IMG/VR virus record: IMGVR_UViG_3300042691_025948
Location: 1 to 24,399 of that record
Source: a virus
Reading direction: 5' to 3' (one strand)
Length of the DNA stretch: 24,399 nucleotides
In this document: positions 83 to 122 of the stretch, piece after piece
How positions within the stretch are numbered: the first letter of the stretch is position 1
Layout of the letters: the number at the start of each line of letters is the position of its first letter
Made by a program: the position numbers and the translations under genes
The notes under the pieces: generated by a model
Told to the model about the DNA's origin: nothing
What the model saw: the letters and a program-made list of their open reading frames with translations, nothing else
Database searches by the model: none

Positions 83-122
83 CTTTTACGTGCCACTGAA
101 CAAACGTAGATCAACAATGAGC
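83..122 (+). promoter_or_regulatory. Late-module leader element, copy A
   Basis: Bases 83-120 match 17124-17161 at 37 of 38 positions, and the last 16 bases (107-122) also match 5605-5620 in front of the capsid gene, giving the consensus TAGAYCAACAATGARC. It lies directly before the packaging module. Read as a promoter, TTTTAC (84-89) and TAGATC (107-112) are 17 bp apart, which is a weak sigma70-like arrangement. It could equally be a phage-specific promoter or an RNA leader. The ATG inside it (117-119) opens an 11-codon frame that stops at 150-152 and overlaps the start of the HNH gene. That this is regulatory is inferred from repetition and position; the mechanism is not known. Confidence 0.6.

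Follow-up and report, generated by a model that had tools for sequence, protein, structure and literature searches.

Gene organization and probable host

The window, i.e. the whole stretch of DNA analysed here, corresponds to a virus record of 24,399 bases in IMG/VR. It resembles a temperate tailed phage of 24.4 kb that has Planctomycetota prophages among its relatives. Pfam matches place, from 124 to 7073 and in this order, genes for an HNH endonuclease, the small and large terminase, a portal protein, an S49 protease and the capsid protein. The first of these, the HNH endonuclease gene, spans 124..408 on the + strand (Pfam HNH, E 2e-10), and the last, the major capsid protein gene, spans 5697..7073 on the same strand (Pfam Phage_capsid, E 2.7e-53) and carries GAGG 5' of its ATG. 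Further Pfam matches mark 22232-22495 as the gene of an XRE-type regulator and 22790-23911 as that of an integrase. At 22661-22713 the 3' end of a tRNA, with long variable arm, T-arm and acceptor, can be discerned by eye, and ARAGORN finds no whole tRNA; this tRNA end is probably the attP site, and since the partial tRNA resembles attP, the record probably represents a temperate tailed phage in its free form. The same tRNA end was found in none of 170 genomes of one family. Repeats around TACAGGATAA at 22505-22803, a stretch next to the probable attP and to the start of the integrase gene, are possibly the arm-type sites of the integrase.

Searches with the capsid protein gave matches in 22 of 392 genomes from the phylum to which a Phycisphaerales relative belongs; for one class within that phylum the figure was 49 of 397 genomes. 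The best matches are about 40% identical across most of the protein. The presence of capsid relatives in planctomycete genomes makes a planctomycete host likely, not certain. Relatives of the terminase are found in Synergistota, Acidobacteria, many Clostridia and others among the best 80 of more than 556 confirmed; matches to this protein also occur in 2,438 records from phages, those of Streptococcus and Lactococcus among them, none of which reaches 60% identity, and the best match, at 52%, is to a viral contig whose host is not known. Positions 1-5800 of the window have no DNA match in the phage collection, and the portal scan found no relatives.

The repeated element and its surroundings

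Three copies of one element are present, all on the + strand like the genes: copy A (83..122) precedes the packaging operon (HNH, TerS, TerL and portal), copy B (5581..5620) the major capsid gene and copy C (17124..17163) the probable lysis genes. The 38-nt block described in the initial annotation is borne out by the comparison of 83-120 with 17124-17161, which are identical at 37 of 38 positions; extension by the next two bases gives 38 of 40. Its 16-nt core, TAGAYCAACAATGARC, occurs three times only, as had been claimed (107-122 in A, 5605-5620 in B and 17148-17163 in C), and nowhere else in the window with up to two mismatches; at three mismatches one further match appears at 14799-14814, within a coding frame. 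The flanks of the capsid copy differ, again as described: upstream of the core, B equals A at 10 of 24 positions, an agreement reached by 5.7% of 20,000 flank shuffles. The distance from core to start codon is 1 nt in A, 76 nt in B and 27 nt in C. All copies lie in AT-rich dips, with GC contents of 37%, 48% and 48% for A, B and C against 63% overall, corresponding to the 0.15th, 3.7th and 3.7th percentile of 60-nt segments. The block of copy C at 17124 extends over the 3'-terminal part of a possible small ORF (16896-17150), whose stop codon is formed by the first three bases of the core. Inside the same frame, a possible 40-aa ORF at 17028-17150, also ending in core C, would encode one hydrophobic segment and is holin-like.

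The gene following copy C (17191..17928, + strand) encodes a probable papain-like cysteine enzyme with an N-terminal hydrophobic segment and is a candidate lysis gene. Its product has no match in Pfam, PHROG or NCBIfam and no sequence match in PDB; it shares 38% identity with one prophage homologue, in which the Cys, His and Asp-Asn-Asn stretches are conserved. The structural model is of low confidence (pLDDT 55.2) and its best PDB structure matches are papain-like (E 1.4e-4, TM only about 0.3-0.4). The designation of this region as a lysis module thus draws some support from a weak papain-like fold and a single homologue, and none from protein families; the genes after copy C are probably lysis genes.

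The same element at the edges of three modules might also be a repeated boundary sequence, a relic or a promoter of module exchange, of the kind discussed for other phages in the available part of one report (PMC3029335). The 37 of 38 identities between A and C amid unrelated flanks resemble a recent copy, and A and C may indeed represent a recent duplication and not two selected sites; however, B retains only the core and the promoter-like positions, and module exchange appears a very unlikely explanation for the whole set.

Significance of the repeat

A word occurring three times is by itself not rare: in 59 of 60 shuffles of the whole window some 14-mer was present at least three times with up to one mismatch, and the most frequent real 14-mer is a GC-rich CGACGGCGGCGG-type word with six copies, by position mostly inside genes. 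What is rare is an AT-rich word common to three gaps. Our own gene list, which omits the small ORF before copy C and so treats that stretch as noncoding, gives 15 noncoding gaps with a minimum length of 30 nt (1,767 nt in all). The best 14-mer shared between them with up to one mismatch is this core, present in three gaps; none of 300 dinucleotide shuffles gave three gaps, the maximum being one gap in 235 and two gaps in 65. Matches to the core with up to three mismatches averaged 0.10 in 100 whole-window shuffles, with a maximum of 1. The three-copy observation is real. Chance or an assembly artefact could be invoked, given a single record, one copy close to the contig end and the abundance of threefold words across the window; the gap-restricted and pattern shuffles, together with the three separate contexts of the copies, render this explanation extremely improbable.

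Proposed promoter register and possible sigma factor

The initial annotation placed TAGAYC as the -10 hexamer, a register that is not the best, since it gives 6 of 12 consensus matches in B and, with TTTACG at a spacing of 16 bp, 7 of 12 in A and C. In each 40-nt block the top score lies six bases further, with AACAAT as the -10, a 17-bp spacing and 8 of 12 matches in all three copies. The proposed hexamers, all on the + strand, are GTGCCA (90-95) and AACAAT (113-118) in A, GCGACA (5588-5593) and AACAAT (5611-5616) in B, and GTGCCA (17131-17136) and AACAAT (17154-17159) in C. The joint score of A and B was matched by 175 of 20,000 shuffles of both flanks, which allowed three spacings and as many as 13 placements of the -10, a figure that is optimistic because the register was picked post hoc. 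The -35 regions of A and B are mostly diverged, so that their agreement is partly independent evidence, though modest. A score of 8 of 12 is attained by 88 of 5,000 random 40-nt segments of the window, and a second site in the extended leader of C also scores 8; since this value is below the scanner's threshold of 9, none of the three copies was listed by it. Sigma54 and minus-strand promoters were dropped on inspection by eye only.

An alternative sigma factor, suggested earlier on the ground of a poor sigma70 fit, need not follow from these data, as AACAAT restores 8 of 12 matches; the activator proposed along with it stays plausible. TAGAYC, just 5' of the -10, is as strictly conserved as the -10 itself, which sigma70 alone does not account for; an activator or another sigma factor could make contact there, or the conservation could reflect shared descent. 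The combination of weak hexamers and a strictly conserved TAGAYC suggests that an additional phage factor probably confers late specificity.

The earlier proposal of a late promoter or an RNA leader is supported in part: the common strand, the position at module starts and the AT-rich dips point to a promoter, and the leader finds no support in folding. An element acting in RNA, either as a leader structure or through a mini-ORF starting at an ATG within the core, could account for the invariance of ATG-ARC in the core, and in C the stop codon TAA of the mini-ORF directly abuts ATG 17191. The mini-ORFs have 11, 15 and 10 codons (by eye), and ORFs so small are expected by chance; moreover, the 100-nt leaders are no better folded than shuffles (z -0.34, +1.35 and +0.77), no Rfam match attains the gathering scores, and in A the HNH ATG lies only 1 nt past the core. 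An RNA function has accordingly little probability.

A different possibility is that the core is the site of a phage regulator and not a promoter, for example a repressor operator, an antitermination loading site or a distal activator site. Its ungapped conservation over 16 nt exceeds the need of a -10, and A and C have at least 22 further bases in common, including an imperfect inverted repeat, TTTACGT-N12-ACGTAGA; this repeat is missing in B (by eye), a clear operator-like palindrome sits elsewhere, at the early sites, and the core itself forms part of the best promoter register. A regulator site of this type is therefore unlikely. With some reserve, we consider it probable that the three elements are matching late promoters, for packaging (A), capsid (B) and probable lysis genes (C).

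Predicted transcription starts and gene layout

The sequence, positions, orientation and statistics of the copies are direct observations; the transcription starts, the sigma factor, the timing and the activator are inferred from them. The -35 (GTGCCA or GCGACA) and the -10 AACAAT, spaced by 17 bp, would be recognized by RNA polymerase carrying a sigma70-type factor, and transcription would begin about 6-7 nt 3' of the -10. The start of A would then fall at about 124-126, on the HNH ATG at 124, producing a leaderless HNH message, while for B and C the distance from start to ATG would be about 74 nt (capsid gene) and about 25 nt (gene at 17191), respectively. An additional phage factor, a candidate activator, would make these weak promoters late-specific.

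The HNH ATG at 124 is 5 nt after the proposed -10 and 1 nt after the core, and no Shine-Dalgarno sequence is seen before it. This start codon is backed by 2 of 10 HNH-bearing relatives (L005 and L007), in which residue 1 aligns with the homologue's own ATG; the remaining relatives align from residues 3 to 21. Shine-Dalgarno sequences are present at the capsid gene, the 17191 gene and the early genes at 20946 and 21309, and at the first two GAGG lies downstream of the predicted transcription starts. The gene starts at 1482, 8593 and 19392 likewise have no clear Shine-Dalgarno sequence (by eye), and one is also missing at some gene starts within the late operon. The predicted starts are compatible with the gene layout, and the missing Shine-Dalgarno sequence is not special to HNH.

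Upstream of copy A, a terminator-like hairpin, CTTGGCGACGCCAAG with a run of six T behind it at 68-73, occupies 51..73 on the + strand and ends nine bases before the element. Terminator-like sites in 1-8000 are not significant by count (6 found, 8.3 expected in shuffles); the fold predicted for 40-82 is more stable than in shuffles (z -3.1, 2 of 200), with a minimum-energy hairpin that differs from the one at 51..73. At 7123-7152, 3' of the capsid gene, lies another hairpin, of 12-13 pairs and with no T-run, which would fit a capsid transcript of its own and does not prove one. Within 7123-7205, after this hairpin, a tRNA acceptor and T-arm (GCCGAGG...GCGGGTTCGACTCCCGCCCTCGGC) can be recognized by eye, with no D or anticodon arms. 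The fold of 7100-7206 is stable (z = -5.0, 0 of 200 shuffles as good), and in its second part the minimum-energy structure is one long hairpin, not a tRNA-like form; the 7123-7205 region has a weak match to tRNA-Sec (E 0.025, 22.4 bits against a gathering score of 47).

Among the proteins scanned with Pfam, no sigma factor, known late activator or Ogr/Delta zinc-finger family was found, but only the XRE-type regulator. A more extended reading, in which the copies define a new promoter class, TAGAYC-AACAAT-GARC, which the host polymerase would read solely with a so far undescribed activator or sigma factor encoded by the phage, with leaderless translation of the first packaging gene and in a planctomycete phage, must be considered tentative and rather doubtful.

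Distribution of the element among related phages

The 14-mer, with up to one mismatch, is absent from 87 loci (L004-L010 and L043-L122). In 23 related loci, 7 earlier and 16 newly fetched (L008 and L189 give identical hit figures and may be one prophage), the only match with up to two mismatches is located in L191, inside the capsid gene. In the motif search that the initial annotation had proposed, coding regions of the relatives searched were thus free of the core apart from this one match, far from an equally frequent occurrence in genes. Since none of the 23 loci has the core, conservation cannot serve as an argument.

In 7 whole records or genomes, three matches with up to one mismatch were obtained. 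Two Phycisphaerales genomes account for one each, and in one of these genomes the control matched as well; the third is that in the L018 record. Among 397 genomes from one class of the phylum, 74 genomes had matches at this threshold, at 81 places by hand count among the matches listed; none was exact, there were at most two per genome, and the reversed control likewise yielded scattered hits. In IMG/VR the 15-mer is present in 32 stretches, several of them redundant, in single copy each and with flanks matching at no more than 12 of 23 positions, and a 22-nt flank pattern gave 0 hits. The best of these stretches, L018, places the match in another phage, in a gap flanked by a lysozyme-like ORF and, in the opposite direction, a terminase-like ORF; it was set aside as chance, without proof. 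The element is most likely private to this phage among the relatives searched.

Exact 12-mer repeats were found in the noncoding stretches of several relatives, including L179, L180, L182, L184 and L185, by a crude test that would miss a pair as diverged as A and B. In the related prophage L184, a 27-nt repeat, GAAGTGATTTCGGGCGAAATCAAGGAG, is found at 11206 and 17086 of the oriented copy; it ends in a Shine-Dalgarno-like AAGGAG and may be coding.

Early promoter-like sites and regulators

Two early promoter-like sites are present on the + strand, TTGACG-16-TAAACT at 20354..20381 and TTGACA-16-TAAACT at 21238..21265, both with the palindrome TTTAACCGATATCGGTTAAA; they belong to a repeat, 93% identical over 43 nt, between 20347-20389 and 21231-21273. 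By count they are not in excess (2 in the scan, 1.0 in shuffles), so that their weight rests on the repeated palindrome, which appeared in 0 of 100 shuffles. These sites match the sigma70 consensus at 9-10 of 12 positions, slightly better than the late elements at 8 of 12, and this difference suggests two promoter classes. The palindromes are likely repressor operators, for which the XRE gene at 22232-22495 would provide the candidate repressor. A further 38-nt repeat (95%), between 20925-20962 and 21288-21325, includes the Shine-Dalgarno sequence and first codons of two small early genes and suggests duplication. As another candidate regulator, the gene at 23911-24306 on the - strand was rejected, with weak winged-helix hits only and an unusable model (pLDDT 40.6); no relatives of it were found.

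Comparison with known systems and implications

According to the available part of one report, phage P2, with its activator Ogr, has four late promoters with TGT-N12-ACA (PMC3931495); as far as that part describes P2 and relatives such as Smp131, one short element heads several late operons of a temperate phage, as it does here. Unlike in P2, TGT-N12-ACA is found at none of the three elements, and its 3 matches in the window are equalled in number by 26 of 100 shuffles. The SAS of cluster K mycobacteriophages are, in the portion available, short repeats upstream of genes, mostly in one orientation and nearly private to that phage group (PMC3203893), features that are shared by the element described here. 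The same portion places SAS typically 3-7 bp before start codons, with AGGAG and in the non-structural half of the genome (PMC3203893); here, the spacing is 1, 76 and 27 nt, the core has no AGGAG and two of the three genes served are for packaging and capsid. With sigma70-type promoters the elements share, in the proposed register, two hexamers at 17 bp and an AT-rich region, whereas the matches are just 8 of 12 and the conserved TAGAYC in the spacer lies outside the consensus. No paper on late promoters in planctomycete phages was found among the results listed by literature text search, and the accessible part of a planctomycete phage paper (PMC10945688) has no bearing on promoters.

The same element before several late modules is an ordinary idea in phages; the sequence itself was not found in the relatives searched. 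Early sites with operator-like palindromes and late elements, combined in a 24-kb genome, would make this phage a test bed for gene timing in the phages of its phylum.
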